NCBI GenBank assembly: GCA_032209605.1
Contig: JASFXZ010000020.1
Span: 7,501 to 71,500 of the forward strand
Length of the DNA: 64,000 nucleotides
Source of the DNA: Mactromeris polynyma
Taxonomy: Eukaryota; Mollusca; Bivalvia; Venerida; Mactridae
Reading direction: 5' to 3'
How positions within the stretch are numbered: position 1 is the first letter of the stretch; each line of letters begins with the position of its first letter. Below, piece by piece: positions 9,216 to 48,000 of this stretch. Position numbers and translations under genes: made by a program. Below the pieces are notes generated by a model that searched no databases, had not been told where the DNA came from, and was given only the letters and a program-made list of their open reading frames with translations.

Positions 9216-10211
9216 ATGCCAAGGTTGAATGAAACTGACAGATGCCGCGCCGTAGGCATGATTGAAGCTGGTGTACGTCATACTGACGTTGCCAGACAAT
9301 TTGGCGTTCACCGAAATACTGTAGACGCCTTGTGGAGACGGCACCAACAGTTTGGGGCAACCAGAGACCGGCCTCGACCAGGACGTCCACGCGTAACGTC
9401 TATTCGCCAGGATACGTACATCCGGGTGGTTCATCTCCGTGACCGACTCAGAACTGCTTCTTTGACGGCTAGAAGTATTCCTGGCCTTAGAAGAATCAGT
9501 CCCGAACGGTACGTAATCGATTGCGTGAACGAGGCATACGTCCACGACGTCCTGCCATACGTCCTGTTCTGCAGCAACGTCATCGTGTAGCACGTTTTGC
9601 CTGGTGTAGAAGACACATACACTTCACGCAACAGGACTGGGCACGTATTCTTTTCACGGATGAGTCCAGGTTCCATCTCGACAGCAGCGACGGCCGTTCT
9701 AGAGTGTACCGTCGTGTTGGTGAACGTTTCCATGACAGTTGTGTGATTGAACGACGTCCATTCGGCGGAGGTAGTGTCATGGTGTGGGGTGGCATCTCAT
9801 CCCGTGGTAGAACAGCACTTGTGGTTGTAGACGGCACACTTACAGGCATCAGATATCGTGACGAAATCATACGGCCTCACGTCCTTCCATTTGTGCAGCA
9901 ACGTAACGCCACGCTGCAACAGGATAACGCTCGCCCGCACGTCGCGCGGGTCGTCACCGACTTTTTGACCCAGAACAATGTGAATGTGCTGCCCTGGCCT
10001 GCAATATCACCGGATTTGTCGCCTATAGAACACGTGTGGGATGAGATGCAGCGACGGTTACGTGGCCTCCAAAATCAGCCGTTGACGTTACCTGATCTAT
10101 CACGTGCGCTTGTCAGAATCTGGAATGGTATTCCCCAGGCATTTTTCAGAACACTTGTCACATCAATGCGGCGTCGTTGTCAAGCATGCATCGATTCCAA
10201 TGGTGGACATA
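9216..10211 (+). pseudogene. Tc1 transposase (outer element), frameshifted
   Basis: Starts at MPRLNETDRCRAVGMIEAGV with a paired-type helix-turn-helix region (DVARQFGVHRNTV) and the GRPR hook (RPRPGRPR). Near 9500 one base is missing, so the frame moves from the ATG frame (...RRISP) to that of RNRLRERGIRPRRP. The catalytic triad is visible: TDESRF, LQQDNARPH and SPDLSPIEHVWDE, with 34 residues between the second Asp and the Glu (DD34E). The C-terminus, after RRRCQACIDSNGGHT, is cut by the inner element; the remaining few codons lie after 11830. It acts on the element's own TIRs when intact; this copy cannot make full-length protein without frameshifting. Confidence 0.9.
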
Positions 10212-20225: not shown

Positions 20226-23200
20226 TTAATCAATCATTAGACAAATATAACAAAGAATGCATCACAACACCACCAACAACATTTACAACAGCAAATTAAG
20301 CATCACAACATCACCAACAATATTTACAAAACCAGAGAATACGTAACAACACCACCAACAACATTAACAACATCAATGTAAGCATCATACACAACCAACA
20401 ACATCTACAACTACAAAGAAAGCATCATAACAGAACCAATAATATTTACAGCAACAAAGAGAGCATCATAACATGACAAACAATATTTTCAATAACGACG
20501 AAAGCATCATAACACGACCCACAATATTTAAAATAGCAAATTAAGCATCACACCAAAGAAAGCATCATAACACAACCAACAATATCGATCACATCAAAGA
20601 AAGCATCATAACACCACCAACAATATTTACAACATCATAGAGAGTATCATAACACCACCAACAATATTTACAACATCAAAGAAAGCATCATAACACCACC
20701 AACAATATTTACAACAACAAAGAAAGCATCATAACACCAAAATTATTTACAACAAGAAACAAAGCATCATCAAACAACCAACAATATTTTCAACAACAAA
20801 GAAAGCATCATAACACCACCAACAATATTTATAACAACAAAGAAAGCATCATTACATAACCAACACTATTTAAACCAACAAAGAATGCATCATAACACAA
20901 CCAACAATAGTTACACCAACAAAGAAAGTATCATAACGCCACCAACAATATTTACAACATCAAAGAAAGCATCATAACACAACCAACAATATTTAAAACA
21001 ACAAAGAAAGCATCATAACACAACCAACAATATTTCCAACCACAAAGAAAGCATCATAACACTTCCAACTATATTGACCACAACGAAGAAAGCATCTTAA
21101 CGCAACCAACAATATTTTCAACAACAAACAATGCATCACAACACCACCAACAACATTTACAACAACAAGGAATGCACCACAACACAACCAACAATATTTA
21201 CAACAACAAAGAAAGCATAATAACACAACCATCAATATTTACACTAACAAAGAAAGCATCATAACACCTACAACTATATGTGCAACATCAAAGAAAGCAT
21301 CCTAACGCAACCAGCAATCTTGACAACATCAAAGAAAGCATCATAACACAAACAACAATATTTACTACAACGAAGAAAGCCTCGTAGCACAACCAACAAT
21401 ATTTTACAACGACAAGCATCATAACACAACCAACAATATTGACAACAACTAAGAAAGCATCATAACACCACCAACGACATTTACAACATCAGAGAAAGCA
21501 TTATAACACCACCAACATTATTTACAACATCAAAGAAAGCATCATAACACCACCAACAATATTTACAACAACAAAGAAAGCATCATAACACCAACAATAT
21601 TTACAACAACAAAGAAAGCATCATAACACCACCAACAATATTTACAACAGCAAAGAAAGCATCATTACACAACCAACAATATTTACAACATCAAAGAAAG
21701 CATCATAATACCACCAACAATATCTACAACAACAAAGAAAGCATCATAACACCAAAAATATTTACAACAAGAAACAAAGCATCATCACACAACCAACAAT
21801 ATTTTCAACAACAAAGAAAGCATCATAACACCACCAACAAAATGTACAACGACAAAGAAAGCATAACACAACCAACAATATTTACAACAACAAAGACAGC
21901 ATCATTACATAACCAACACTATTCAAACCAACAAAGAATGCATCATAACACAACCAACAATAGTTACACCAACAAAGAAAGTATCATAACGCCACCAACA
22001 ATATTTACAACATCAAAGAAACCATCATAACACAACCAACAATATTTAAAACAACACAGAAAGCATCATAACACAACCAACAATATTTCCAACAACAAAG
22101 AAAGCATCATAACACATCCAACTATATTGACCACAACGAAGAAAGCATCTTAACGCAACCAACAATATTTATAACAACAAAGAAAACGTCATTACACAAC
22201 CAACAATATGTTCATCATTAAAGAAAGCATCATTGCACAACCAACAATATTTACAATAGCAAATAAAGCACCACAACACCACCAATAACATTTACAACAA
22301 CAAAGAAAACGTCATAACACAACCAACAATATTGACAACAACGAAGAAAGCATCATAACACCACCAAAATATTATAACATCAAAGAAAGCATCATAACAC
22401 ACTTAACAATATTCCAACATCAAAGAAAGCATCATAACACCACCAACAATATTTACAACAACAAAGAATGCACCACAACACAACCAACAATATTTACACC
22501 AACAGAGAAAGCATCATAACACCACCAACAATATGTGCAACATCAAAGAAAGCATCATAACACCACCAACAATATTTACAACAACAAAGAATGCACCACA
22601 ACACAACCAACAATATTTACACCAACAAAGAAAGCATCATAACACCACCAACAATATGTGCAACATCAAAGAAAGCATCATAACACCACCAACAATATTT
22701 ACAACAACAAAGAATGCACCACAACACAAACAACAATTTTTACACCAATAGAGAAAGCATCATAACCCCACCAACGATATGTGCAACATCAAAGAAAGCA
22801 TCATTACACAACCAACAATATTTACAATAGCAAATAAAGCATCATAACACAATCAGCAATATTGACAACAACGAAGAATGCACCACAACACAACCAACAA
22901 TATTTACACCAACAAAGAAAGCATCATAACACAATCAGCAATATTGACAACAACGAAGAATGCACCGCAACACAACCAACAATTTTTACACCAACAAAGA
23001 AAGCATAATACCACCAACAATATGTGCAACATCAAAGAAAGCATCATTACACAACCAACAATATTTACAATAGCAAATTAAGCATCACAATACCACCAAC
23101 AATATTTACAACAACAAAGAAAGCGTATTAACACAACGAACAATATTGACAACAACGAAGAAAGCATCATAACACCACCAACAATATTTACAACAACAAA

Positions 23201-26200
23201 GAAGACGTCATAACACAACCAACAATATTGACAACAACGAAGAAAGCATCATAACTCAACCAAAAATATTTACTACATCGAAGAAAGCATCACAACACCG
23301 CCATCAATATGTGCTACAACAAAGAAAGCATCATTACACAACCAACAATATTTACAATAGCAAATTAAGCATCACAACACCACCAACAATATTGACAACA
23401 ATGAAGAAAGCATCATAACACAACCAACAATATTGACAACAACGAAGAAAGCATCATAACACCACCAACAACATTTACAACATCAACGAAAACATCATAA
23501 TACCACCAACAATATTAATAACAACAAAGAAAGCATCATAACACCACCAACAACATTTATAACATCAAAGAAAGCATCATAACACCACTAACAATCATTA
23601 TAACATCAATGAAAGCATCATAACGCAACCAACAAAGTTTACAACGACAAAGGAAGCATCAAAACACATCCAACTATATTTACAACAACAAAGAAAGCAT
23701 CACAACACAACCAACAATATTGACCACAACGAAAAAGCATTTTAACGCAACCAACAATATTTTGAACAACAAAGAATGCATCACAACATCACCAACATCA
23801 TTTACAACAACAAAGAATGCACCACAACACAACCAACAATATTTACAACAACAAAGAAAGCATCATAACACCACCAACAATATTTACACTAACACAGAAA
23901 GCATCACAACACCAACAACAATATGTGCAACATCAAAGAAAGCATCAAAACACCGAAAATATTTACAACAACAAAGAAAGCATCATAAAACAATCAACAA
24001 TATTTACTACAATAAAGAAAGCATCATAACACAACCAACAATATTGACCACAACGAAGAAAGCATCTTAACGCACCCAACAATATTTTCAACAACAAAGA
24101 TAGCATCATTACATAACCAACACTATTTACACAAACAAAGAATGCATCATAACACAACCAACAATATGTACAACATCAGAGAAAGCATCATAACACCATC
24201 AACAATATTTACAACATCAAAGAAAGAATCATAACACCACCAACAATATTTACAGCATCAAAGAAAGCATCATAACACCCAAAATATTTACAACAACAAA
24301 GAAAGCATTATCTACCACCAACAATATGTGCAACATCAAAGAAAGCATCATAACACCAAACATATTTACAACAACAAAGAATGCATCACAACATCACCAA
24401 CATCATTTACAACAACAAAGAATGCACCACAACTCAACCAACAATATTTACAACAACAAAGAAAGCATCATGACACAATCAACAACATTTACAACATCAA
24501 TGAAAGCATCATAACGCAACCAACAAAGTTTACAACGACAAAGAAAGCATCAAAACACATCCAACTATATTTACAACAACAAAGAAAGCATCATAACACA
24601 ACCAACAATATTTACAACATCAAAGAAAGCATCATTACACCACCAACAACATTTACAACATCAAAGAAAGCATCATAACACCACCAAAATATTAAAACAT
24701 CAAAGAAAGCATCATTACACAACCAATCATATTTACAACATCAAAGAAAGCATCATAACACAACCAACAATATTTACAACATCAAAGAAAGCATCATAAC
24801 ACCACCAACAATATTTACAACAACAAAGAAAGCATCATAACACAACCAACAATATTTACAACATCGAAGAAAGCATCATAACACCACCAAAAAATTAAAA
24901 CATCAAAGAAAGCATCATTACACAACCAACCATATTTACAACATCAAAGAAAGCATCATAACACCACCAACAATATTTACAACATCAAAGAAAGCATCAT
25001 AACACAACCAACAATATTTACTACATCAAAGAAAGCACCATAACATCACCAACAATATTTACAACATCAAAGAAAGCATCATGACACAACCAACAACATT
25101 TACAACATCGAAGAAAGCATCATAATACATCCAACAATATTTACAACAACAAAGAATGCATCACATCACAACCAACAATATTTACAACAACAAAGAGAGC
25201 ATCATAACACCACCAACAATATTTGCAACATCGAAGAAAGCATCATAACACAACCAACAATATTTACAACATCAAAGAAGGCATCATAACACAACCAACA
25301 ACATTTACAACATCAAAGAAAGCATCATAACACAACCAACAATATTTACAACATCAAAGAAAGCATCATAACACAACCAACAACATTTACAACATCGAAG
25401 AAAGCATCATAACACCACCAACAACATTTACAACATCGAAGAAAGCATCATAACACAACCAACAACATTTACAACATCGAAGAAAGCATCATAACACCAC
25501 CAACAGCATTTACAACATCGAAGAAAGCATCATAACACCACCAACAATATTTACACCATCGAAGAAAGCATCATAACACCACCAACAACATTTACAACAT
25601 CGAAGAAAGCATCATAACACAACCAACAATATTTACAACATCGAAGAAAGCATCATAACACCACCAACAACATTTACAACATCGAAGAAAGCATCATAAC
25701 ACCACCAACAACATTTACAACATCGAAGAAAGCATCATAATACATCCAACAATATTTACAACATCAAAGAAAGCATCATAACACCACCAACAATATTTAC
25801 AACATCGAAGAAAGCATCATAACACCACCAACAATATTTACAACATCGAAGAAAGCATCATAACACAACCAACAATATTTACAACATCGAAGAAAGCATC
25901 ATAACACCACCAACAACATTTACAACATCGAAGAAAGCATCATAACACCACCAACAATATTTACAACATCAAAGAAAGCATCATAACACAACCAACAATA
26001 TTTACAACATCGAAGAAAGCATCATAACACAACCAACAATATTTACAACATCGAAGAAAGCATCATAACACAACCAACAATATTTACAACATCGAAGAAA
26101 GCATCATAACACCACCAACAACATTTACAACATCGAAGAAAGCATCATAACACCACCAACAATATTTACAACATCGAAGAAAGCATCATAACACAACCAA

Positions 26201-28616
26201 CAATATTTACAACATCGAAGAAAGCATCATAACACAACCAACAACATTTACAACATCGAAGAAAGCATCATAACACCACCAACAACATTTACAACATCGA
26301 AGAAAGCATCATAACACCACCAACAACATTTACAACATCGAAGAAAGCATCATAACACCACCAACAATATTTACAACATCGAAGAAAGCATCATAACACC
26401 ACCAACAATATTTACAACATCGAAGAAAGCATCATAACACCACCAACAATATTTACAACATCGAAGAAAGCATCATAACACCACCAACAATATTTACATC
26501 CTCGAAGAAAGCATCATAACACAACCAACAACATTTACAACATCGAAGAAAGCATCATAACACCACCAAAAAATTAAAACATCAAAGAAAGCATCATTAC
26601 ACAACCAACCATATTTACAACATCAAAGAAAGCATCATAACACCACCAACAATATTTACAACATCAAAGAAAGCATCATAACACAACCAACCATATTTAC
26701 TACATCAAAGAAAGCATCATAACATCACCAACAATATTTACAACATCAAAGAAAGCATCATGACACAACCAACAACATTTACAACATCGAAAAAAGCATC
26801 ATAATACATCCAACAATATTTACAACAACAAAGAATGCATCACATCACAACCAACAATATTTACAACAACAAAGAGAGCATCATAACACCACCAACAATA
26901 TTTGCAACATCGAAGAAAGCATCATAACACAACCAACAATAATTACAACATCAAAGAAGGCATCATAACACAACCAACAACATTTACAACATCAAAGAAA
27001 GCATCATAACACAACCAACAATATTTACAACATCAAAGAAAGCATCATAACACAACCAACAACATTTACAACATCGAAGAAAGCATCATAACACAACCAA
27101 CAATATTTACAACATCAAAGAAAGCATCATAACACAACCAACAACATTTACAACATCGAAGAAAGCATCATAACACCACCAACAATATTTACAACATCAA
27201 AGAAGGCATCATAACACAACCAACAACATTTACAACATCAAAGAAAGCATCATAACACAACCAACAATATTTACAACATCAAAGAAAGCATCATAACACA
27301 ACGAACAACATTTACAACATCGAAGAAAGCATCATAACACAACCAACAATATTTACAACATCAAAGAAAGCATCATAACACAACCAACAACATTTACAAC
27401 ATCGAAGAAAGCATCATAACACCACCAACAATATTTACAACATCGAAGAAAGCATCATAACACCACCAACAACATTTACAACATCGAAGAAAGCATCATA
27501 ACACCACCAACAACATTTACAACATCGAAGAAAGCATCATAATACATCCAACAACATTTACAACATCGAAGAAAGCATCATAACACAACCAACAATATTT
27601 ACAACATCAAAGAAAGCATCATAACACAACCAACAACATTTACAACATCGAAGAAAGCATCATAACACCACCAACAATATTTACAACATCGAAGAAAGCA
27701 TCATAATACATCCAACAATATTTACAACAACAAAGAAAGCAATATAACACAACCAAAATATTTACAACATCGAAGAAAGCATCATAATACATCCAACAAT
27801 ATTTACAACAACAAAGAATGCATCACATCACAACCAACAATATTTACAACAACAAAGAACGCATCATAACACTACAAACATTATTTACAACAACAAAGAA
27901 TGCATCACAACACCACCAACAATATTTACAACATCAAAGAAAGCATCATAACACAACCAACAACATTTACAACATCAAAGAAAGCATCATAACACAACCA
28001 ACAACATTTACAACATCGAAGAAAGCATCATAACACAACCAACAATATTTACAACATCAAAGAAAGCATCATAACACAACCAACAACATTTACAACATCG
28101 AAGAAAGCATCATAACACCACCAACAATATTTACAACATCGAAGAAAGCATCATAACACCACCAACAACATTTACAACATCGAAGAAAGCATCATAACAC
28201 CACCAACAACATTTACAACATCGAAGAAAGCATCATAATACATCCAACAACATTTACAACATCGAAGAAAGCATCATAACACAACCAACAATATTTACAA
28301 CATCAAAGAAAGCATCATAACACAACCAACAACATTTACAACATCGAAGAAAGCATCATAACACCACCAACAATATTTACAACATCGAAGAAAGCATCAT
28401 AATACATCCAACAATATTTACAACAACAAAGAAAGCAATATAACACAACCAAAATATTTACAACATCGAAGAAAGCATCATAATACATCCAACAATATTT
28501 ACAACAACAAAGAATGCATCACATCACAACCAACAATATTTACAACAACAAAGAACGCATCATAACACTACAAACATTATTTACAACAACAAAGAATGCA
28601 TCACAACACCACCCAC
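20226..28616 (+). repeat. 41-bp CA-rich satellite, about 200 copies
   Basis: Unit: CACCACCAACAATATTTACA followed by ACATCGAAGAAAGCATCATAA (41 bp). Variants change CACCACC/CACAACC, AATATT/AACATT, ATCGAA/ATCAAA/ACAAA and AAAGCATC/AATGCATC. Copies are heterogeneous at 20.2-24.8 kb and more homogeneous at 24.8-28.6 kb, where multi-unit blocks are duplicated (about 24880-25260 with 26562-26940; about 27716-27900 with 28411-28610). Reading frames of up to 116 codons are incidental. Confidence 0.95.
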
Positions 28617-28619
28617 AGC

Positions 28620-32160: not shown

Positions 32161-32369
32161 AGTAAAATTGTAAAACTTACAGATCTGTCGAGATTAAATC
32201 TTAGCGCCTAATTGTAGACGACAGTGTTGTCAGCCCTGTTCGGAAATTAATTTAGTACGTACCCAGGTTTGTTTACAATTAAGGTCAAGGTCGCTGAAAA
32301 TAACTGGACTTTGAACTGCTTATGCAAACAGCCGTTTATTCGATAATTAGGCATTTCTCTGGTGTGACA

Positions 32370-32581
32370 ATGTCGGCGAAGAGGAAAATAAACATTGATG
32401 TTGTTAGTGACATCATCTGACCTTGGTGTTGGATCGGCAAACGTAATATGGAGGTAGCGATGAATGCGTTGAGCTCAGAGTTTGAGTTCCGTGTTCGTTG
32501 GGAACCTTACTTGCTGAGACCCCAAACACCTCCAGAAGGTTTGCCGATACCTGATGCTTACAGAGATCTAAACAATCCAAG
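32370..32581 (+). CDS. DsbA-like exon 1 with in-frame TGA (Sec17)
   Basis: 212 bp, ending CCA AG|GTTGGT (phase 2). TGA at 32418-32420 is codon 17, directly before PWC. A gene model that treats TGA as a stop would start wrongly at the ATG at 32448 and lose the active site. Confidence 0.9.
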
Positions 32582-35500
32582 GTTGGTAAAACATTATCAT
32601 ATTACGAGGGCTCGACGCAACTCTGTCGTAACCCCTATATAAATACATAGGAGTTACGACAGTATTGCGTTGAGCCCTCGGTACAGTTGTGTTGTTACGA
32701 TCACGAATGCTTATTTAACGTTGCATGATCAACAATTTACAATGCGCTACAAAGTGGTGTGATTTACACGGAATCCCCCACTAACAGATACCTACCTGTG
32801 CTTATGTATCTCCTAGTAATACCCTTTATATACTGAGTGCCAAGCAGGTTCCATTTTTTACGTCTTTGTTATAGGATCTAATTCATGACCTCCTGGACTC
32901 GAAGCGGACACTTTACCAGTTGAGTCAGTGTGCAATGCTATTTCACTTATTTGTTACTTGCTGAAGTAATTCGAGGTGAAAGTGTGTGGCTCAGACCCAC
33001 AACGCCCTTAACACTAGAAGAGCTGTCTACCGACTAAGCTAGACTGGCAACGGTCTACCCCCAACACCTCCTGGCATTTTAGACTCGACCACCCAGTGTC
33101 ATCAAATACTGCTGCCTCCACTGAAGTATTACAATGCGTCTGATGTAGGGGTCAAACCTATGACCCCCCTTAATGCTAATGTGGAGCTCTACCGACTGAG
33201 CTAACCAGGTTTGCTGTGTAACCCCACACCACTTCATCAATGTGTTGGGCACTTGCTAGCAGTTAGTTACCCGGATAGGTAGCTTGTCTTACCCGGATAG
33301 GTAGCTTGTCTTACCCGGATAGGTAGCTTGTCTTATCCGGATAGGTAGCTTGTCTTACCCGGATAGGTAGCTTGTCTTACCCGGATAGGTAGCTTGTCTT
33401 ACCTGGATAGGTAGCTTGTCTTACCCGGATAGGTAGCTTGTCTTACCCGGATAGGTAGCTTGTCTTACCCGGATAGGTAGCTTGTCTTACCCGGATAGGT
33501 AGCTTGTCTTACCCGGATAGGTAGCTTGTCTTACCCGGATAGGTAGCTTGTCTTACCAGGATAGGAAGCTTGTCTTACCCGGATAGGTAGCTTGTCTTAC
33601 CCGGATAGGTAGCTTGTCTTACCTGGATAGACAAGGCATCAGGGAATCAATATTTTGTTGCTTATATCTTTGAATTATACCAATGCATTGAAATAATTGA
33701 AATATTTGAATTGTTGGTTTAACACAATGATAATTAAGTAGAAACCAGAAATAAGTCTTATAGAACAATACTGGAAAGATTGCCACAATTAAGGACATTA
33801 TTTTACTGAAGTCACAAAATTATTTACTGGGGAGTATTACAAATCTCTAGTCATACTGGTAATTTTCAATCATTTATATTTCAGAGTGCAACATTTACGT
33901 AGCGTTGCTTCATCACTGGGTTTAGACTTCAACACAAATAGGTCAAAGTTCGCTAATACATTACTTGGTCATGCCTTATTGGAGTTTGCTAAACAAGTTG
34001 ATAATGGAGAGAAGCAGGATGACGTGGCAGAGAAATTGTTCAAGGTAATCCTCATGTTGCTATTCATATACAATGAGTTTATAATACACATAGTTTAATT
34101 TAGTGTTGACCTCTGGAAACTAATTTTTGCCTCTCATCATTTGATTTTCCCATAATCTTGCTTGAAATCTATATTAAAATTGATTTGAATCATTTTTGGT
34201 AATATCTATAAGCCGCTTAGAAACCGAATGTATTTTTTTCCAGAGATGCTTCACTGATGGTGATGATTTACAAGTGGAAACATGTTTAAGTGTTGCGGAA
34301 GAATGTGGTCTTGACAAAGAAAAAGCAAGAGAATATATAGAGGATGATAGAAATCTTAATGCAGCATTCAATAAAGCCATGAGTTGGGCCAATAAGGGCA
34401 TATCAGGTTTGTGAAAAATTCTATGTTAGTATTTTAATCTTAAAACAATGCGGGTAGCCATACCCATTAGACATATTGAGCAGCCATGCTCTTACTAGTA
34501 CAATGCGGGTAGCCATACCCATTAGACATATTGAGCAGCCATGCTCTTACAAACCTATTGAGCAGCCCTGCTCACACAAATATGAGTTGAACGCGGGTAG
34601 CCATACCCTTTAGACCAAAGGACCAGTTATGCCGAGCAGCCATGCTCTTACTAGTACAATGCTGGTAGCCATACCGATTAATGATACCGAGTAGTCATGC
34701 TCTTACTAACACCCTGAGCAGCCATGCTCTTACCTATATGACACGGGTAGCCATACCCAATCTAGACTTCCTGACCAGACCTATGTGCAACTCGAGATTT
34801 GCCAAGCAAATGCTTATTCCGGACAAAACCGAGTAATTCGAAAGAAAATATCTAGAGCAGACAGTGGAAATTGAGTCTCTGTGTTGAGTATCATGAGCCA
34901 TCATCCACAGCAACCCAAAGTCCAACTATTTAAATGAATTTTGTATCATTATAGACCTACATTTAGAGAAAACATGCATGACTGTCCCCATTGAGAATTT
35001 TTGTGGGATGAGTCAGTCAGTAATACAGTATATACCAGGACATATATATATCATGTATAACCTCAGTCTGCCATATCTTAATTAACACTACCTGCCTTAT
35101 CAAATATGTGAGCATCTTCAATATTTATCAACGTATTGTGGGCTACTTGAACTTTGTGGGAGTACATGTATGTTTACCCCAAATCGATAACGACCCTTAT
35201 TCAACAAGTGTACATAATATAAATATATCAATACCGTTCTGTTACTTGGAGACTTAATTTCTGCTCTTAAGACTTGCATCTTGCTTAACACTTAACTAAC
35301 AATTTGTTTAACATTCATGGTACCTATATATGCATGCCAGGACTTAAGAGTGAGGGAGGGCGAGTGGGATGCGATGTTATCACCACAAGTTCCAAATTGG
35401 AAAGACCGCATGGGCTTGAGGGTGTGGCTTATATACCATGCACGAGTTCCGGTTACGACCTTAGCAACACTTCCGCCCGTGCACCCTAACAAAAGTTCGC

Positions 35501-38500
35501 AAAATAAATGCAATTGATTTTAGAAGAAAATAATTGGTCCTATTGTTGTATGTGTAGCATTATGCAAACTATTGTTGTATGTGTAGCATTATGCAAACTA
35601 TTGTTGTATGTGTAGCATTATGCTAATACTGTTGTATGTGTAGCATTATGCAAACTATTGTTGTATGTGTAGCATTATGCTAATACTGTTGTATGTGTAG
35701 CATTATGCAAACTATTGTTGTATGTGTAGCATTATGCAAACTATTGTTGTATGTGTAGCATTATGCTACTATTGTTGTATGTGTAGCATTATGCTACTAT
35801 TGTTGTATGTGTAGCATTATGCTAATACTGTTGTATGGGTAGCATTATGCAAACTATTGTTGTATGTGTAGCATTATGCTACTATTGTTGTATGTGTAGC
35901 ATTATGCTAATACTGTTGTATGTGTAGCATTATGCACACTATTGTTGTATGTGTAGCATTATGCAAACTATTGTTGTATGTGTAGCATTATGCTACTATT
36001 GTTGTATGTGTAGCATTATGCAACTATTGTTGTATGTGTAACAATATGCAAACTGTTGTTGTATGTGTAACAATATGGAACTATTGTTGTAAAGTAACAA
36101 TATGGAACTATTGTTGTACATGTAACAATATGCAAACTGTTGTTGTATGTGTAACAATATGCAAACTGTTGTTGTATGTGTAGCATTATGCAAACTATTG
36201 TTGTATGTGTAGCATTATGCAACTATTGTTGTATATGTAGCAATATGCTACTATTGTTGTATGTGTAACAATATGCAACTATTGTTGTATGTGTAACAAT
36301 ATGCAAACTGTTGTTGTATGTGTAACAATATGCAAACTGTTGTTGTATGAGTAGCATTATGCAAACTGTTGTTGTATGTGTAACAATATGCAAACTGTTG
36401 TTGTATGTGTAACAATATGCAAACTGTTATTGTATGTGTAACAATATGCAAACTGTTGTTGTATGTGTAACAATATGCAAACTGTTATTGTATGTGTAAC
36501 AATATGCAAACTGTTGTTGTATGTGTAACAATATGCAAACTGTTATTGTATGTGTAACAATATGCAACTATTGTTGTATGTGTAACAATATGCAAACTGT
36601 TGTTGTATGTGTAACAATATGCAAACTGTTGTTGTATGTGTAACAATATGCAAACTGTTGTTGTATGTGTAACAATATGCAAACTATTGTTGTATGTGTA
36701 ACAATATGCAAACTATTGTTGTATGTGTAACAATATGCACATTGTTGTTGTACGAGGGATGTCCCATTAAATCGTAGACAATGGCTGTAAAACAACAAAA
36801 CATTAACAAAAGTTCTTAAAATTTTCAGTGTAGTTATTATCAACATCTTCTCAACACGTATACAAAATAATATTGAACTGTTTGACAAATTGTTGAAATG
36901 ACATTAAAATGTATAACAGGACATACAGACATGTGGCGCGCATATTAACGTTATATAATTATTTTGTGATTTTGATGTGTCTAACATTTACTCTTTTTCG
37001 AAATATTCGCGGCCATATTATATGCATTTTTATGGCACTGCACAAAACTCGCAAACACAGATTTAAACCAGCCCTTATTTAGACTTCTGTTAAACACTTG
37101 CATTGCATAATTGATCTCATTGCGATTTTCAAACTTTCGCCCTCGCAGATGAGACTTCAGAGACACAACGTAAGCAAATTCCAGGGTTCGAGGTTGGGGG
37201 AGTATGGGGAATTATCCACTCTCTGATATCCTAGATTGTCAAAATCTCTCATGCTACTTGGATACGAGTGCTTGCGACACATCACTGTGCTGCTCAACTA
37301 ATTGCATCTTCTTCAGAGTGTATCTGGGGGGTCATTCCGCCCTCCACACAGAATCAAATCACTGCGTGGTGCGCCGCTCCTTTCCCAGACGTTGGCATTT
37401 TTCAAATTTCACTATACATCAATTTGCGTTAAAATAGCACCATGCGGAAACAACAGACATAACATTTATGAGATTTTAAAGTATGACGTCAAAATGATCA
37501 AATAAAACATGTGTAACATAATTTGGTGGAATAATGAAGTTTGGCACGGATAGTACAATGTATTTAAAGCTTTAGCTATTTCAGTTATCTTATCAAAAGA
37601 CTTGCACCGCTCCCGTGTATGTGAGCTTCTATATTGTTACACAAAATACACAAGTTTGTTTTATTTTCAAAACAAATGCAATAAAACTGATCAAATAGGA
37701 TTAAATAGTATATGCGTGTAAAATTATTACATTGGAATGTCAAAAAATTATGTTATAGACATAGTCTACGATTTAATGGGACAACCCTTGTATGTGTAAC
37801 AATATGCAAACTGTTGTTGTATATGTAACAATATGCAAACTGTTGTTGTATATGTAACAATATGCAAACTGTTGTATGTGTAACAATATGCAAACTGTTG
37901 TTGTATGTGTAACAATATGCAAACTGTTGTTGTATATGTAACAATATGCAAACTGTTGTATGTGTAACAATATGCAAACTGTTGTTGTATGTGTAACAAT
38001 ATGCAAACTGTTGTTGTATGTGTAACAATATGCACATTGTTGTTGTATATGTAACAATATGCACATTGTTGTTGTATGTGTAACAATATGCAAACTGTTG
38101 TTGTATATGTAACAATATGCAAACTGTTGTTGTATATGTAACAATATGCAAACTGTTGTTGTATGTGTAACAATATGCAAATGGTTGTTGTATGTGTAAC
38201 AATATGCAACTATTGTTGTATGTGTAACAATATGCAACTATTGTTGTATGTGTAACAATATGCAAACTGTTGTTGTATGTGTAACAATATGCAACTATTG
38301 TTGTAAAGTAACAATATGCAAACTGTTGTTGTATGTGTAACAATACGCAACTATTGTTGTATGTGTAACAATATGCAACTATTGTTGTATGTGTAACAAT
38401 ATGCAAACTGTTGTTGTATGTGTAACAATATGCAACTATTGTTGTAAAGTAACAATATGCAAACTGTTGTTGTATGTGTAACAATATGCAACTATTGTTG

Positions 38501-38983
38501 TAAAGTAACAATATGCAACTAGTGTTGTATGTGTAACAATATGCAACTATTGTTGTACATGTAACAATATGCAAACTGTTGTTGTATGTGTAGCATTGTG
38601 CAAACTGTTGTTATATGAGTAGCATTATGCAAACTGTTGTTGTATGTGTAACAATATGCAACTATTGTTGTATGTGTAACAATATGCAAACTGCTGTTGT
38701 ATGTGTAACAATATGCAAACTGTTGTTGTATGTGTAGCATTATGCAACTATAGTTGTTGAATAAGTGAATTGTAATAGACATAATTATACACATATTAAC
38801 ATTCATTTATTTGTTGGCAAGTAATCAGGTAGGGATATATTTGTTCCACTTTCAGGTGTTCCAGCGTTTTACTTCAATGGTCAGAAAATGTTCTCAGGTG
38901 CTCAGGAACCGGATGTCTTCCAACAAATGTTTAAAGTTGTATCAGAAATGTTCCCTAATGATCCTCCAGCAAGCAAGTCATAA
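32370..38983 (+). CDS. Selenocysteine-containing DsbA/FrnE-like oxidoreductase
   Basis: Four exons (32370-32581, 33885-34044, 34244-34406, 38856-38983) with GT-AG borders in consistent phase give 220 residues, the usual length for the DsbA/FrnE group of thioredoxin-fold proteins. The ATG at 32370 has A at -3. Residues 9-27 read IDVVSDII, then TGA, then PWCWIGKRN, so the CPWC active site is U17-P-W-C20. Later family marks are VRWEPYLLRP (after the redox helix), the helical insert (LLGHALLEFAKQ to EYIEDDRNL) and the cis-Pro loop GVPAF (Pro181) followed by FNGQKMFSGAQEPD. Every exon is otherwise open, and a SECIS element lies downstream, which argues for Sec decoding and against a nonsense mutation. 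The inferred role is thiol/selenol-disulfide exchange; no signal peptide is visible, so a cytosolic location is likely. Substrate unknown. Confidence 0.9.
32605..32680 (+). repeat. Near-perfect 34-bp-arm hairpin in intron 1
   Basis: Arms 32605-32638 and 32647-32680 start and end CGAGGGCTC / GAGCCCTCG, with an 8-base loop; about 30 of 34 pairs are Watson-Crick and one is G-U. It begins 23 bp inside the first intron of the DsbA-like gene. The likely identity is a foldback MITE; its size and mismatches also fit a pre-miRNA. Confidence 0.85.
32875..33215 (-). repeat. Three tRNA-like units in tandem (SINE heads or tRNA relics)
   Basis: On the - strand, 33210-33125 reads GGTTAGCTCAGTCGGTAGAG (A box) and later GGTTTGACCCC (B box). 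A second unit at about 33065-32985 has TAGCTTAGTCGGTAGA and GGGTCTGAGCC. A third at about 32945-32880 has ACTCAACTGGTAAAG and CCGCTTCGAGTCCAGG. Folding is imperfect and the anticodon stems are degenerate, so functional tRNAs are unlikely; a tRNA-derived composite SINE fits better. Confidence 0.65.
33267..33632 (+). repeat. 22-bp minisatellite, about 17 copies
   Basis: Unit ACCCGGATAGGTAGCTTGTC plus TT, nearly invariant (rare CCTGG, CCAGG and GGAAGC). Lies in intron 1 of the DsbA-like gene, immediately after the tRNA-like cluster. Confidence 0.95.
33885..34044 (+). CDS. DsbA-like exon 2
   Basis: 160 bp between TTTCAG and GTAATC. The first base completes Arg in LNNPRVQHLRSV. Encodes the first part of the helical insertion (SLGLDFN, TLLGHALLEFAKQ, DDVAEKLFK). 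Ends in phase 0. Confidence 0.92.
34244..34406 (+). CDS. DsbA-like exon 3
   Basis: 163 bp after a TTTTTTTCCAG acceptor, ending TCA G|GTTTGT. Encodes RCFTDGDDLQVETCLSVAEE and the following helices to NKGISG, typical of the FrnE helical domain. Confidence 0.92.
34449..34756 (+). repeat. Irregular repeat of two hairpins sharing a GCCA loop
   Basis: Alternating GGGTAGCCATACCC and GAGCAGCCATGCTC, each a 5-bp stem closing the same GCCA loop, in about nine to ten copies with variants such as GAGCAGCCCTGCTC and TGGTAGCCATACC. Lies in the last intron of the DsbA-like gene. Confidence 0.85.
35538..36750 (+). repeat. ~29-bp minisatellite, left part
   Basis: Unit TTGTTGTATGTGTAACAATA plus TGCAAACTG, 27-29 bp, with an internal inverted repeat ATTGTT..AACAAT. 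The left third uses TAGCATTATGC and the right part AACAATATGC. Same array family as 37791-38755; the mariner insert separates the two. Confidence 0.93.
36753..37790 (-). mobile_element. Mariner-like element, degraded, inside the minisatellite
   Basis: Inverted ends CGAGGGATGTCCCATTAAAT at 36753 and the complement ending at 37790 share about 27 bp and are flanked by TA. On the - strand 37166-36990 encodes SLKSHLRGRKFENRNEINYA and WFKSVFASFVQCHKNAY, matching the C-terminus of mariner transposases (LKSHL-G-x-F ... W-KC). No DDD catalytic region is found, so it is a 1-kb deletion derivative. Confidence 0.85.
37791..38757 (+). repeat. ~29-bp minisatellite, right part
   Basis: Continuation of the 35538-36750 array beyond the mariner insert, mostly the AACAATATGC variant with CAAACTG or CAACTA joints and some copies shortened to TTGTAAAGTAACAATA. 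Ends about 100 bp before the acceptor of exon 4. Confidence 0.93.
38856..38983 (+). CDS. DsbA-like exon 4 and stop
   Basis: 128 bp after CACTTTCAG. Completes Gly179 and encodes VPAFYFNGQKMFSGAQEPDV, then a C-terminal helix ending PASKS and TAA at 38981-38983. The 4.45-kb intron before it is mostly minisatellite and a mariner remnant. Confidence 0.92.
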
Positions 38984-39275
38984 TCAAGTGTTTTAGCAAT
39001 CTGCTCCCCAGAAAGGAATCTTCAATTTTCTGGTCTATATAAACACCTTCTCTGACTTGCAGCTCTAAGTATGAACCAGATGGTCAAATAAAGGCCCGTA
39101 TGAACACTCACTATCTGTCATCTTAATATGAACCAGATCTTCAACTTAGATTTTGATATTAATACAATAACCATCTTTCAGCTCTGTATAAACCCCATCT
39201 TCCACTATTGGCTCAGTAAGAATCCATTCATCAGTTATCACATCAGTATACATCAGATGATTGACTATTAGATCT

Positions 39276-39770
39276 GTATGAAACAAATCTTCAACTGTTG
39301 GCTCATTATAAACCAAATCTTCAACTGTTGGCTCAGTATGAACCAAATCTTCAACTGTTGGCTCAGTATGAACCAAATCTTCAACTGTTGGCTCAGTATG
39401 AACCAAATCTTCAACTGTTGGCTCAGTATGAACCAAATCTTCAACTGTTGGCTCAGTATGAACCAAATCTTCAACTGTTGGCTCATTATGAACCAAATCT
39501 TCAACTGTTGGCTCAGTATGAACCAGATCTTCAACTGTTGGCTCATTATGAACCAAATCTTCAACTGTTGGCTCATGATGAGCCAGATCTTCAACTGTTG
39601 GCTCAGTATGAACCAAATCTTCAACTGTTGGCTCAGTATGAACCAAATCTTCAACTGTTGGCTCAGTATGAACCAAATCTTCAACTGTTGGCTCAGTATG
39701 AACCAAATCTTCAACTGTTGGCTCAGTATGAACCAAATCTTCAACTGTTGGCTCATTATGAGCCAGATAC
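39276..39770 (+). repeat. 30-bp minisatellite in the 3' UTR, about 16 copies
   Basis: Unit AACCAAATCTTCAACTGTTG plus GCTCAGTATG. Being a multiple of three, it is open in several frames on both strands, but it lies after the stop codon and before the SECIS. Degenerate copies extend left to about 39065. Confidence 0.95.
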
Positions 39771-39800
39771 CCACATCGATACGTTGTCAATTATTACTGT

Positions 39801-40010
39801 AACTGGACATTCTAGATAAGTATTGTACACCATATTACCAGCAGTATTTAATGTACCTTATCTCTATAAAACTGGACTTCTAGGTAAGTGTTGTACACCA
39901 TATTACCAGCAGTATTTAATGTACCTTATCTCTATAAAACTGGACTTCTAGATAAGTATTGTACACCATATTACCAGCAGTATTTAATGTACCTTATCTC
40001 TATAAAATAA
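39801..40010 (+). repeat. 68-bp tandem repeat, 3 copies
   Basis: Unit ACTGGACTTCTAGGTAAGTG, TTGTACACCATATTACCAGC, AGTATTTAATGTACCTTATC, TCTATAAA. In the DsbA-like 3' UTR between the 30-bp array and the SECIS. Confidence 0.93.
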
Positions 40011-40316
40011 ACATCAGTTTACCTAATATCTATAAAATTAACATCTGCAAGCTTTACTGAAAATATAATAGTATCCACTGAATGAAGAGGTACTTATATC
40101 AAACAATAGTTGACATATCAATAAACCATGTTGTGAATTGTTTGTCTTCAAATTCCATTAGTACATACATGTACTTGGCGAGTAATTTATATTTACTGCA
40201 ACATATTTGTTATTTCGTGTTATTATTTGTATGATAAGTTTTAATCCATTGTATTTAAATGTTTTATTATATATTTTAATTGTGTGTGAAATTGACATTT
40301 TAAATTATTAATCTTA

Positions 40317-40392
40317 CCAGTTATTAAGGAATTAATGAAGATTTCTATGAAAATCAGTGTAGAATATCTGAGGATCTTTCTTTAATAATTGG
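40317..40392 (+). promoter_or_regulatory. SECIS element in the DsbA-like 3' UTR
   Basis: The non-Watson-Crick quartet arms are ATGA (40335-40338) and TGAG (40369-40372). Helix II pairs AGATTTCTA with TAGAATATC/T (9 bp, one bulge). The apical loop contains AAAA at 40350-40353, 11 bases after ATGA. Helix I pairs CCAGTTATTAAGG (40317-40329) with CTTTAATAATTGG (40380-40392), 13 bp including G-U pairs, below an internal loop. Spacings fit eukaryotic SECIS rules. It is 1.33 kb after the stop codon and 150 bp before AATAAA, on the coding strand of the gene with the in-frame TGA. It would recruit SBP2 and the Sec-tRNA elongation factor. Confidence 0.87.
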
Positions 40393-40542
40393 TAAGTTTT
40401 GATATGTGTTATAACAAACTGTTTGTGATTATGTATTCGAGAATTGTTAAAATTTTGATTTTCAAATGTTTGTTCAATTAAATATTTAGTATATGATTTT
40501 TAGTTGTATAATCATATGTGCTAGGGTTAGAAAACCCATGAA

Positions 40543-40548
40543 AATAAA
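40543..40548 (+). terminator. Poly(A) signal after the SECIS
   Basis: AATAAA, 150 bp downstream of the SECIS and just before the 24-bp array. Earlier hexamers on the same strand lie at 39087-39092, 40006-40011 and 40120-40125; use of any of these would leave the SECIS out of the mRNA. Confidence 0.55.
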
Positions 40549-40598
40549 ATCAAGGCAAAAACAGTTTCGTCATAAATAGAAGTGGTGTTATTGCCGAT

Positions 40599-42090
40599 AG
40601 TATGTCTTACCTATGTATACCTAGTATGTCTAACCTATGTATACCGAGTATGTTTTACCTATGTATACTGAGTATGTCTTACCTATGTATACTGAGTATG
40701 TCTTACCTATGTATACTGAGTATGTCTTACCTATGTATACTGAGTATGTCTTACCTATGTATACTGAGTATGTCTTACCTATGTATACCGAGTATGTCTT
40801 ACCTATGTATACCGAGTATGTCTTACCTATGTATACCGAGTATGTCTTACCTATGTATACTGAGTATGTCTTACCTATGTATACTGAGTATGTCTTACCT
40901 ATGTATACTGAGTATGTCTTACCTATGTATACCGAGTATGTCTTACCTATGTATACCGAGTATGTCTAACCTATGTATACCGAGTATGTCTAACCTATGT
41001 ATACCAAGTATGTCTTACCTATGTATACCTAGTATGTCTTACCTATGTATACCGAGTATGTCTAACCTATGTATACCGAGTATGTCTTACCTATGTATAC
41101 CTAGTATGTCTTACCTATGTATACTGAGTATGTCTTACCTATGTATACTGAGTATGTCTTACCTATGTATACTGAGTATGTCTTACCTATGTATACTGAG
41201 TATGTCTTACCTATGTATACTGAGTATGTCTTACCTATGTATACTGAGTATGTCTTACCTATGTATACCGAGTATGTCTTACCTATGTATACTGAGTATG
41301 TCTTACCTATGTATACCGAGTATGTCTAACCTATGTATACCGAGTATGTCTTACCTATGTATACCTAGTATGTCTTACCTATGTATACTGAGTATGTCTT
41401 ACCTATGTATACCAAGTATGTCTTACCTATGTATACCTAGTATGTCTTACCTATGAAAACCTAGCTTTCCCTGTAGTTACGTATTCTCTCTCTTCTTTTA
41501 CCTATGTATACCTAGCATGTCTTGCCTATGTATACCTAGCATGTCTTGCCTATGTATACCTAGTATGTCTTGCCTATGTATACCTGGTATGTCTTACCTA
41601 TGTATACCTGGTATGTCTTACCTATGTATACCTGGCATGTCTTGCCTATGTATACCTGGCATGTCTTGCCTATGTATACCTAGTATGTCTTGCCTATGTA
41701 TACCTAGTATGTCTTGCCTATGTATACCTAGTATGTCTTGCCTATGTATACCTAGTATGTCTTACCTATGTATACCTGGCATGTCTTGCCTATGTATACC
41801 TGGCATGTCTTGCCTATGTATACCTAGTATGTCTTGCCTATGTATACCTAGTATGTCTTGCCTATGTATACCTAGTATGTCTTGCCTATGTATACCTAGT
41901 ATGTCTTACCTATGTATACCTAGTATGTCTTGTCTATGTATACCTAGTATGTCTTGTCTGTGTATACCTAGTATGTCTTGCCTATGTATACCTAGTATGT
42001 CTTATCTATGTATACTTAGTATGTCTAGCCTATGTATACCTAGTATGTCTTGCCTATGTATACCTAGTATGTCTTGCCAATGTATACCGT
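40599..42090 (+). repeat. 24-bp minisatellite, about 60 copies, two subarrays
   Basis: Unit TATGTCTTACCTATGTATAC plus C(T/C)(A/G)G. The left subarray (to 41460) uses CTGAG/CCGAG joints; the right one (from 41503) uses CCTAG with CTTGCC. A 38-bp foreign segment at 41465-41502 divides them. The period of 24 keeps long frames open (284 and 216 codons of an eight-residue repeat), which I do not treat as genes. It lies between the ends of two convergent genes. Confidence 0.95.
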
Positions 42091-43390
42091 TATCCACACA
42101 GAATGATGCTTTTTTATATAATCTGGGAGGATTATCCGTGAGAATACTACATTGTGAGAAACACTAATAGAACATCATACACTCAGAGTACAACTACTTC
42201 TATCCATTGTTCAACTTGTCAATGTTAGAATTTCGCAAGACAACACATATTTCAACATTTATTTGTTAATAAGATTTTATACAAGCATTGCACTTTGCCC
42301 CAAGAGATATAATTTACAACAAACTGATTAGAATTCATAAGATAAACACTGACAGATGAACAATATACCTTAAATACTTCAGGTACAAGGTTATTTCAGT
42401 CTAAAGACCAGTCTCAGAATGCAACATTGCCATTGGTCAATTTGAAGTCTGTGCTCAAAATCAACCAATCAGAAGCTTGAGTTTTGAGATCGGTCTACAT
42501 ACTTGATATCCTCAGACTGTTTGATCAACAGTTCAAACATGCTAACAAATACTAAATGCCATTAAAATATGCAACCAAAAATTGTGCATATAAGGTAAAG
42601 TAACATTACAAAGGCAAAAATATTATGTTTTTCTCAAACATAATTTTATAAAATTAATCAATAATGAAATAAAACATAATTGGTCTGGAGTTCATTCAAG
42701 TTTTGAACAAGAATTAACACATAGATTACTGTAACACGCTTTTGACAATTGGTACTACAAAATGACGCCTAGTTAAAAAAGTTGCGTTTTAATGGCGTCA
42801 AGTTTACAGATGATAACTGTTACTTAGGGAAATAATCAAGTTGAATCAGGAATAACCTATTTGTGATGTTTAACACTATTCAAGTAGTGACATGATAACT
42901 CATTTGTTTCATCATTGTCCAACACAAGTTATCATCATCTATTGTTATTAAAACAGTACATGGTACTGTTGAAGAGTACAATATATAACAATGACTCCAC
43001 CCAGGTATATACCCCAATGCAACATCAGTAGAATGGAAACAACTTTTTGTTCTACTATTTCAAAGTTGAAAATTTCATTTCACCAACCATATGTTTATAC
43101 TAAAATGCTGTGGGATGTCTAATAAATTTGGAACCAAAGAAGCAAGTTAAATTTATCAACCAGAGATCTATAATGGCCCTTCACCCTTTCTTATGTTAAA
43201 TAATACACCTATTTCTATGACGGCCTTTGGTCATTGTCAGACAAGTGATGCACATATTTCAGGGATACCCAAAATCCACATCACAGCCAGAGGCTGCAAG
43301 GGCAAGCAAGGGTGATCAATGGCACACAGACTGGGTTGATTTCCACACTGTGTGAAGAACAACTTGTTCAAAGTTCAGGTTATCGAATCA
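42091..43390. other. Intergenic spacer between convergent genes
   Basis: Mostly unique A+T-rich DNA. It includes the dispersed repeat at 42551-42808 (pair of 30047-30283). No exon recognised. Confidence 0.45.
42551..42808 (+). repeat. Dispersed repeat, pair with 30047-30283
   Basis: Second copy of the family described at 30047, including AGTTTTGAACAAGAATTAAC and ACACGCTTTTGACA, with small indels. Confidence 0.75.
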
Positions 43391-43488
43391 GATGTACACT
43401 GTATGATCGGGATCATCCCTACACCGAGTCTCTTACCTTGATGTACACTGTATGATCGGGATCATCCCTACACCGAGTCTCTCACCTT
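43391..43488 (+). repeat. 49-bp direct duplication
   Basis: GATGTACACTGTATGATCGG at 43391 recurs at 43440. The copies differ at one base (TCTTACC / TCTCACC). Each contains the small palindrome GATCGGGATC. Confidence 0.9.
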
Positions 43489-43512
43489 GATGAACTTAAA
43501 GCAGAACAATAT

Positions 43513-43975
43513 GAAATATTTCAACACAACAGCCAATATGTCCCTGTATTGTTCCCCTGGTATAGGACTAAGAAATTATGTATGTGAAACAACAGCCAAT
43601 ATGTCCCTGTATTGTTCCCCTGACATAGGACTAAGTAATCCTGTCTGTGAAACACCAGCCAATATGTCCCTGTATTGTTCCCCTGACATAGGACTAAGAA
43701 ATCCTGGCTGTGAAACAAAAGCCAATATGTCCCTGTATTGTTCACCTGGTATAGGACTAAGAAATCCTGGCTGTGAAACAACAGCCAATATGTCCCTGTA
43801 TTGTTCCCCTGGTATAGGACTAAGAAATCCTGGCTGTGAAACAACAGCCAATATGTCCCTGTATTGTTCCCCTGGTATAGGACTAAGTAATCCTGTCTGT
43901 GAAACAACAGCCAATATGTCCCTGTATTGTTCCCCTGGTATAGGACTAAGAAATTCTGTATGTGAAAACAATGGC
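43513..43975. repeat. 63-bp minisatellite, about 7 copies, 3' of UVRAG
   Basis: Unit ACAACAGCCAATATGTCCCT, GTATTGTTCCCCTGGTATAG, GACTAAGAAATCCTGGCTGT, GAA. A multiple of three, so frames are open on both strands (172 codons on +, 131 on -); the translations carry no domain. It lies just downstream of the UVRAG stop codon. Confidence 0.95.
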
Positions 43976-44363
43976 AGGGAGGAAATCTTATTGAAAAGTT
44001 TTTAGTTAAATCAGCATAACTGCTTTTACATTAATTTGACAGGGGTGGGTCTATCCATACCAAATTACCCCATCCCACTGCCAGCTTTATTTTAATTACC
44101 AAAATAGTCATTGGACAACATACATATGTCTATGCTAACAAGCCAAGTTTTACTTCAGTGTTTGATTTAGATCAATTAGGAAATACATAAACCATACAAA
44201 GTTAGGTAACTGAAACCATACCAAGCAGGAAATACAAAAAAACATACAAAGTTAGGATACATAAACCATACAAAGTTAGGTAGATAATTGGTTTGATATT
44301 GTTAGCATATGTAGTGCAGTTGGTTTTATAACAAAATCATGTTCATCTATCATTACTTAGTTA

Positions 44364-45024
44364 CTATCTATCAGAATAAGTTACAGAGTCTAAGTTTCCA
44401 TTGTTTTGTGTTATAACTGAGGTATCAACAGTGTGGACATTTAGCTTATCAGACAAATTCTTATCACAGTTAATCTGTTCAGACGTCAGCATATATTCAG
44501 TTACAGTAGACTGGTTTGGTGAATGGCCGCATGATCCTGGACTGGTTTTAGAATCCGCAGATTTTACATCAGAATGGTTTACATTCATAACATTATTTTC
44601 TGCACTTCCTGGAGATGGAGATAAACTGAAATTTCTAGCATATAAATTTGAATCATTTGTTTGTTCTGAAAATGAACCACAACTCGAATTTTCTGCAGAG
44701 TCAGCATTAAATGCTGTGGTTTTCAGTTTGAAAAAGGCATCTTCCGAAGGTCCAAACAACTCTTCCCCTTCCTTCACGTTCTCCTCAGTTTGTGTCACAT
44801 GTAGGTCAGTTAACAGCACAGGATTCATTGTCTGTTTCACAAGACCTTGATCTTTATCCAGACTTTTCTTACATAGAGCTTGTTCTAAATCGTTCATCTC
44901 CTCATGTCTAGAACCATTTTTACCTCCAGAAGCTAGAGAGCTCATTGTATCGGCCAATTCTGTAGACGGCAAACTTAAGTTGTCTCTGAGGTCAGTTCTT
45001 GGCCTGAGACCATCTTGATTTTCA
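44364..45024 (-). CDS. UVRAG: UVRAG terminal exon, disordered tail and stop
   Basis: 661 bp after CATATTTCAG, 219 codons and stop. It begins ENQDGLRPRTDLRDNLSLPS and is rich in Ser, Asn, Asp and Glu, ending NLDSVTYSDR. Low conservation is usual for the UVRAG tail. The antisense open frame at 44401-44850 is a shadow. Confidence 0.88.
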
Positions 45025-48000
45025 CTGAAATATGAAGACACCATCATCACAGAATGTTTGGTTATATGGGTTTCACACCTGGCATGTATCTGGCATATAT
45101 AACCATGATCTATACAGTAATTTATAACACAACAGTCCTATCAATAAATCTTCAACTCCATAAATGTGGGTATAACCATGGTTGTTATAACAAGTGTTGA
45201 CTGTAACATTGCCTGGCTTGATAAATACAGACTATATAAGATGTAAACATTCAAGTTTTATGTATAATGTACACAGAATAATTAACAACTTGATATGAAG
45301 TTATCGCCTGTATATGATATTGTACTCAAAATCTTGCTTCTATCATTAACTCAAAATATTGTTGCTATGGGAACCAAATAAAAATGTGAAACAGTAAGAA
45401 AAGTAAGAATTTATCAGTAATAAAGATATTCAAAACCAAAGTTATGACACACTTACAATTTGATTCCTAATCTTGTCTCAAGCATAGATTTAATGTTAGG
45501 TAAGGTTAACCTCAGATCAACTGTACCAAGTCCACAGTTAAACCGCATCTAAAATAAATCACCAAAAGTTAAAAAACTGATTGTAGGACAAAAAATGGAA
45601 AACAATGCAACACATGGTTCTAGAAATAAACAAAACATTTGACATGTAGATGATACACAATCATTTACCACTTGGATACATAATCATTTAACTGCTCGGA
45701 CACACAAGCAGTGCCTGGATAAACAAAATGGCCCCAGGCCATACACATGTTCCAGTGATAAACCATTGGCACTAGGCCATACAAATGTTCTAGTGAATGC
45801 AGTTCCAGACCATACAAATGTTCCAGTGATAAACCATCAGTAGCAGGCCATACACATGTTCTATTGATTGCAGTTGCAGGCCATACACATGTTCTATTGA
45901 TTGCAGTTGCAGGCCATACACATGTTCTATTGATTGCAGTTGCAGGCCATACACATGTTCTATTGATTGCAGTTGCAGGCCATACACATGTTCTATTGAT
46001 TGCAGTTGCAGGCCATACACATGTTCTATTGACTGCAGTTGCAGGCCATACACATGTTCTATTGATTGCAGTTGCAGGCCATACAAATGTTCTATTGATT
46101 GCAGTTGCAGGCCATACAAATGTTCTATTGATTGCAGTTGCAGGCCATACACATGTTCTAGTGATTGCAGTTGCAGGCCATACAAATGTTCTATTGATTG
46201 CAGTTCCAGGCCATACACATGTTCTAGTGATTGCAGTTCCAGGCCATACAAATGTTCTAGTGATTGCAGTGCCAGGCCATACAAATGTTCTAGTGATTGT
46301 GTGGTGGAATGTGGATCTTACCTGACTGATATTTTTGTTCAACAAGAACACACCATAGTTAAACTGGAACTTTTCTTTGCCTTTCATATATAATGGAAAT
46401 CTGCAAAACAGAAATGACACACATACAAGAATCTGTTCTATCCATGAAACAAAGTTGTATGAACCTATGATTCAATGTCTTAAGTTCAACACTGAAACAC
46501 AGTCATCCAAACATCCACTCATATACAATCAAGTCAAATTCATAAATCTTAAAATTACTTCAAGTTACAAAAAAAAAAAAATTTGAATAATAAAGCAAAT
46601 GAAGAGTGAACACTTCTGTTTACAATAAACTTCCCATCAGATAGTTCTAACCTGAATAAATACATACAATTATGTATATGGTCAGTGAAAGAACATTCTG
46701 CTGAAAGATGGTTCACCGGATATCTCAATGGAATGTCCACTTCAATGAACATACATAGAATTAGAAATACTGCCAAAGTTCATATTACTGAAATCATAAT
46801 ATTATTTTTTCTGTTCCATAACAACTAAATCTTTGTTATTTTTTTAACATTTTCCATACCATGTGGTAAGCACATGGGAAATACAACTGAAATTATGTAA
46901 TACAATACTTACGTTTTATCTTTTTCATTAAGTTTGGAATGTATATGGTCCGTGACAGAAGATCTTGATGAATTATGGTTCATCGGATATCTCAATGGAA
47001 TGTCGAGTATTTGTGACATCATCTCTACTAGATGACATGTGTAACCAAGGGCAACAGAACACATTGTGTCATCTTGACCTGCCATTATCAAAGAAAATTC
47101 AGATTTTTCATTTAACATAAATAAAGCAATTTAACAAACACAAGTATTTCTGATTCAGTCAGGTGTTGGATAAATGGAGTGTTGAATTACTCAAGTGCAA
47201 CTACATCTTTCATAATTTAAACATGTACTTTAAATGAAATGATGCTGTTCATATAGAAGTATACTTCATTTATTTATAAGCTAGAGTTATATTTCTTGTC
47301 TCAGACATAACATACATAGAGTTACAGTTCTTGTCTCAGACATAACATACATAGAGTTATAGTTCTTGTCTCAGACATAACATACATAGAGTTATAGTTC
47401 TTGTCTCAGACATAACATACATAGAGTTATAGTTCTTGTCTCAGACATAACATACATAGAGTTATATTTCTTGTCTCAGACATTACATACATAGAGTTAT
47501 ATTTCTTGTCTCAGACATAACATACAAAGAGTTATATTTCTTGTCTCAGACATAACATACATAGAGTTATAGCTCTTGTCTCAGACATAACATACATAGA
47601 GTTATAGCTCTTGTCTCAGACATAACATACATAGAGTTATAGCTCTTGTCTCAGACATAACATACATAGAGTTATAGCTCTTGTCTCAGACATAACATAC
47701 ATAGAGTTATAGTTCTTGTCTCAGACATAACATACATAGAGTTATAGCTCTTGTCTCAGACATAACATACATAGAGTTATAGTTCTTGTCTCAGACATAA
47801 CATACATAGAGTTATAGTTCTTGTCTCAGACATAACATACATAGAGTAATATTTCTTGTCTCAGACATAACATACATAGAGTTATAGCTCTTGTCTCAGA
47901 CATAACATACATAGAGTTATAGCTCTTGTCTCAGACATAACATACATAGAGTTATATTTCTTGTCTCAGACATAACATACATAGAGTTATATTTCTTGTC

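Follow-up and report, generated by a model that had tools for sequence, protein, structure and literature searches.

A candidate selenocysteine-containing DsbA/FrnE-like gene in the bivalve Mactromeris polynyma

The 64-kb stretch of Mactromeris polynyma DNA analysed here (hereafter, the window) contains a gene for a DsbA-like protein whose reading frame passes through an in-frame TGA, which raises the question of whether this codon is read as selenocysteine (Sec), or whether it marks a decayed gene, lies upstream of the true start or is read as some other residue. The initial annotation described a frame from ATG 32370 that continues through TGA 32418-32420 into PWCWIGKRN and the rest of a complete four-exon gene without other disruption. 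The coordinates were rechecked on the sequence, and splicing of the four exons (Table 1), all of them with GT-AG borders, confirmed this description: the product has 220 residues followed by TAA, and the TGA at codon 17 is the sole internal stop across the 220 codons.

Table 1. Coordinates of the candidate Sec-DsbA gene and its associated elements within the window
Feature	Position	Strand	Evidence
Exon 1, coding, with the proposed Sec codon; A at -3 of the start codon	32370..32581	+	Splicing; relatives P0213, P0214 and P0038 begin at the equivalent residue
In-frame TGA, proposed Sec (residue 17), first position of U-P-W-C	32418..32420	+	Aligned to the first Cys of FrnE CPWC
Exon 2	33885..34044	+	Splicing; own-genome protein match
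Exon 3	34244..34406	+	Splicing; own-genome protein match
Exon 4 with the GVP motif; stop TAA 38981-38983	38856..38983	+	Splicing; FrnE alignment; own-genome match
Upstream in-frame extension from ATG 32322 (16 residues, C at -3), candidate longer isoform	32322..32369	+	Sequence; without support from relatives
SECIS-like hairpin	40313-40396	+	Pattern and fold scan, shuffles; unmatched by Rfam
AATAAA, candidate poly(A) signal, 3' of the hairpin	40543..40548	+	Sequence

When codon 17 was given as Cys, the protein matched the Pfam DSBA profile (PF01323) with E = 3.4e-29, residues 9-203 being aligned to positions 2-189 of 191, and it matched the FrnE chains in the PDB (5cnw and others) with E = 3.3e-25. 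The latter alignment places codon 17 on the first Cys of CPWC, as expected from the earlier proposal that the TGA replaces the nucleophilic Cys of this motif, and both the U17-P-W-C20 active site and GVP 179-181 are aligned to FrnE. We take the GVP in exon 4 to be the cis-Pro loop of the thioredoxin fold. The only NCBIfam match was a weak one: a thioredoxin-like (seleno)lipoprotein family scored 21.4 bits, where the cut-off is 190. A search of the protein against its own 793-Mb assembly (299 contigs) returned four matches, all in its own four exons, and thus revealed no close Cys paralogue within the sensitivity of the search.

The question of decay can be approached from the reading frame itself. 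A nonsense mutation of TGC or TGT in a Cys-type DsbA gene, or an assembly error, would give the observed codon, since both Cys codons are one base away from TGA, and Cys forms do exist in gastropods (P0019, P0125 and P0187). Among the 1980 possible single-base changes in the coding sequence, 102 create a stop (the TGA was left in place for this count). Because a Cys codon at position 17 can become TGA through a change at just one of its bases, we infer that a random nonsense mutation would hit this codon in roughly 1% of cases, and the SECIS-like hairpin found downstream makes chance or decay even less likely. With 220 codons free of any other disruption, the hairpin in the right place and many relatives whose entries start equally late (see below), we consider a pseudogene or assembly error extremely unlikely.

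This hairpin, which was missing from the initial annotation, lies 1.3 kb beyond the stop codon and ahead of an AATAAA. Its stem consists of a 19-bp lower helix, a 4/5-nt internal loop and an 11-bp upper helix with one bulge, capped by an apical loop of 8 nt that includes AAAA (40350-40353). In the core, AUGA (40335-40338) stands opposite GA (40370-40371), and the first pair of the upper helix, A40339-U40369, is part of the quartet and closes it. The layout of AUGA, GA and apical AA is that of eukaryotic SECIS elements. We scanned the window with a home-made combination of pattern and folding, which was composed after the hairpin had been spotted by eye and folded; among the candidates in the 64 kb, 10 on the plus strand and 13 on the minus strand, the hairpin scored best (-28.0, the next being -18.6). 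Dinucleotide shuffles of the whole 64-kb window reached -28.0 in 6 of 200 cases when both strands were considered, whereas none of 2000 shuffles of the plus strand of the presumed 3' UTR (38984-40560) did so (best, -25.8), indicating that such a score is moderately rare overall and rare at this place. The fold of the hairpin had a z-score of -5.74, and an equally stable fold was found in 0 of 200 shuffles. Rfam scans of the whole window, and of positions 38900-46000 at a loose threshold, yielded no SECIS match. Further AATAAA sequences occur upstream of the hairpin (39087, 40006 and 40120), so that the UTR could also be shorter and lack the SECIS. On its predicted structure and position, the hairpin is a candidate eukaryotic SECIS element in the presumed 3' UTR of this gene.

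The genome also appears to be equipped for the use of Sec. Sixteen Rfam matches to tRNA-Sec were found in the assembly, two of them above the cut-off (78.8 and 75.3 bits), and ARAGORN classified both of these loci as tRNA-Sec (anticodon TCA). The same family gave matches in all 14 control genomes, and matches above the cut-off in five of them. For SepSecS, all seven exon matches were above the cut-off and located on a single contig. The SepSecS profile also gave matches above the cut-off in three of the 14 control genomes, including Bacillus subtilis, and is therefore not fully specific. A search of the M. polynyma assembly for Rdx (SelW/SelT), intended to supply a positive control for the SECIS scan, gave no matches. 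Heavy use of Sec by bivalves is already in print: according to a review, the selenoprotein P genes of bivalves can contain as many as 132 Sec codons (PMC7435645).

We then compared the active site among relatives, taken as the 211 distinct proteins among the best 120 of 514 and the best 120 of 5269 matches from two protein searches. At the position of residue 17, 124 of the 211 matches listed carry C and one carries W, and the remaining 86 fall short of the site. For the 24 closest proteins among the matches listed (P0002-P0025), 23 begin at residues 27, 29 or 31, just past the active site, which is the pattern expected if annotation stops at the UGA; the other one, from the periwinkle Littorina, begins MCPWC. 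All eight bivalves that are named among the matches listed (Mactra, Mya, Dreissena, Pinctada, Mytilus, Pecten, Ylistrum and Mizuhopecten) begin after the site, as do the entries from Saccoglossus, Ptychodera, Owenia and Branchiostoma lanceolatum (at 27 or 31) and Lineus (at 48), a late start being used here as a proxy for TGA that incomplete contigs can also produce. Cys is found at the site in Littorina (two genes), Batillaria and the starfish Asterias.

Taken at face value, entries running from residues 27-31 in 23 of the 24 closest relatives among the matches listed would favour translation from Met27, after the UGA, to give a DsbA-like protein that has no active site, as the database has it for these relatives. 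Such a protein would be without the UPWC motif and the first strand, although the sequence running from VSD through IGKR is the same in three relatives that retain exon 1, except at the site itself and at the two residues before it. Moreover, the same mis-annotation has been described for Sec-DsbA of Ciona and Branchiostoma (PMC2874816), and we regard a Met27 start as very unlikely. The start at 32370 is supported because all three of the exon-1 relatives begin at the equivalent residue.

The exon-1 relatives also bear on whether the UGA might be read through without selenium, for instance as Trp. When exon 1 was used as the query, two proteins were found, of which one has W at the site (79% identity) and the other C; P0038 is the third exon-1 relative, and in all, two of the three have W and one has C. 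Two database proteins with W would be in line with read-through as Trp, although the W is most simply the product of translation under a code in which TGA = Trp, and the hairpin and the Sec machinery are present; we judge read-through of this kind extremely unlikely. The best explanation of the W in these entries would be the TGA = Trp code, with a genuine TGG codon as the alternative. When P0213 was compared with viral and prokaryote contigs, no DNA of a relative was found in them, as expected of an animal gene. Pseudogene, downstream-start protein and Trp read-through were all rejected, given the intact frame, the hairpin, the Sec machinery and the conserved exon 1.

Among the matches listed, the 91 proteins P0122-P0212, from the second search, comprise 63 that fall short of the active site and 28 with Cys; the first residue is number 22 in 22 of them (M/VGKRK or similar) and number 48 in 13. 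Sec forms may be common in other eukaryotes too and entered there in shortened form, contig ends being the alternative.

The phylogenetic tree was reconstructed from 31 rows chosen from the 211 listed matches (those bearing a name and a selection of the others), using residues 27-220 of the window protein and a midpoint root. The window protein was grouped with those of Mactra, Mya and Dreissena (100/99); this cluster belongs to a group of 12 molluscs (99/96) and, together with Branchiostoma lanceolatum and other animals, to a group of 20 rows (96/89). Late-starting and Cys states are separated by three changes on this tree. This distribution fits, but does not prove, the suggestion that Sec is the older state in animals and that Cys arose later on the gastropod and starfish branches. 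In a further, unlikely scheme, bivalves keep a Sec-DsbA that was converted to a Cys enzyme in caenogastropods, and the upstream AUG at 32322 possibly sends part of the clam protein to mitochondria; if true, molluscs would offer a natural Sec/Cys exchange experiment combined with dual location.

Taken together, we are highly confident that the locus is a functional bivalve selenoprotein gene, which on sequence comparison probably represents the Sec-containing DsbA/FrnE family in molluscs. By analogy with what is known of such families, SBP2 and eEFSec would act through the SECIS to recode the UGA as Sec, and the selenolate of U17, paired with C20, would exchange disulfides with substrates, so that the protein may work as a thiol/disulfide oxidoreductase or isomerase. 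It is probably cytosolic, because with the start at 32370 no leader precedes the catalytic domain, and a longer isoform from ATG 32322 would be possible. Bivalves would thereby join the animals in which this Sec-DsbA selenoprotein is recognisable, and many database entries for it from bivalves and other invertebrates are suggested to be cut at the active site. Since both apparent Sec and Cys versions occur in molluscs, the contribution of selenium to a DsbA-like enzyme could be compared directly there.

The surroundings of the gene are very dense in tandem repeats, with 24 rows of score >= 500 in the window. Repeat-rich stretches include 20550-28617, 60268-64000, 57878-59949, 51204-53261 and 35540-36752, among others; a 41-bp array of about 198 copies extends over 8 kb, a 100-bp array reaches the end of the window, and several of the longest open frames fall inside tandem arrays. 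Two transposase-like stretches (9491-10264 and 10828-11628), which we presume to be Tc1/mariner-like, match DDE_3 and HTH_Tnp_Tc3_2, although the second of the HTH matches is below the cut-off. Intron 3 of the gene carries a 29-bp tandem array (35540-36752 and 37788-38747) split by about 1 kb (36753-37787), the ends of which resemble, by eye, copies of some 29 bases in inverted orientation, suggestive of the insertion of a mobile element.

Among proteins of known structure, FrnE (PDB 5cnw and others), presumably the Deinococcus protein, resembles the clam protein in its DSBA domain, as recognised from sequence, in the position of CPWC and in the GVP loop. It differs in carrying Cys rather than Sec and in the length of its chain (260 residues against 220 here). 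FrnE has a second CX4C motif, which is absent from the clam sequence.

As for the family in animals, Sec-DsbA with SECIS elements was reported in 2010 from Ciona intestinalis, C. savignyi and Branchiostoma floridae; for Ciona and Branchiostoma, the portion of exon 1 that carries Sec was noted there to have been mis-annotated as UTR (PMC2874816). Table 1 of a 2012 paper lists Sec-DsbA in Nematostella (two), Lottia (one), Capitella (one) and Branchiostoma (one), and the paper gives Cys forms of DsbA for Amphimedon and Trichoplax and states that Sec-DsbA was replaced in higher vertebrates (PMC3473315). Lottia is a mollusc, so that even the phylum is not new. FrnE (DsbA) is also an annotated selenoprotein family in SelenoDB 2.0, which cites the 2010 paper (PMC3965025). 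The view that the clam gene encodes an animal DsbA/FrnE-like enzyme with Sec gained support from the SECIS-like hairpin, the Sec machinery and the late-starting relatives, whereas the suggestion that such a family may be undescribed did not hold in the light of these three sources; "little studied" may still apply, as the descriptions of Sec-DsbA in the published portions available are sequence predictions only. Our literature search, with most subscription papers outside its scope, found no report of a bivalve Sec-DsbA, including in the available parts of PMC7435645 and PMC12693785.

Compared by description, the Sec-FrnE/DsbA proteins of algae (PMC6627142 and PMC7539508) are likewise eukaryotic Sec forms of the same enzyme class, and belong to another kingdom. 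The animal Sec-DsbA proteins resemble the one predicted in the clam in having Sec at the upstream Cys of CxxC and a SECIS downstream (PMC2874816, PMC3473315 and PMC3965025), and those of Ciona and amphioxus share with the clam gene the Sec codon in the first exon and database entries mis-annotated around it. The difference, in a comparison with published descriptions rather than sequences, is that the species is new and a bivalve, and the clam gene is very probably a new member of the already reported animal Sec-DsbA family.
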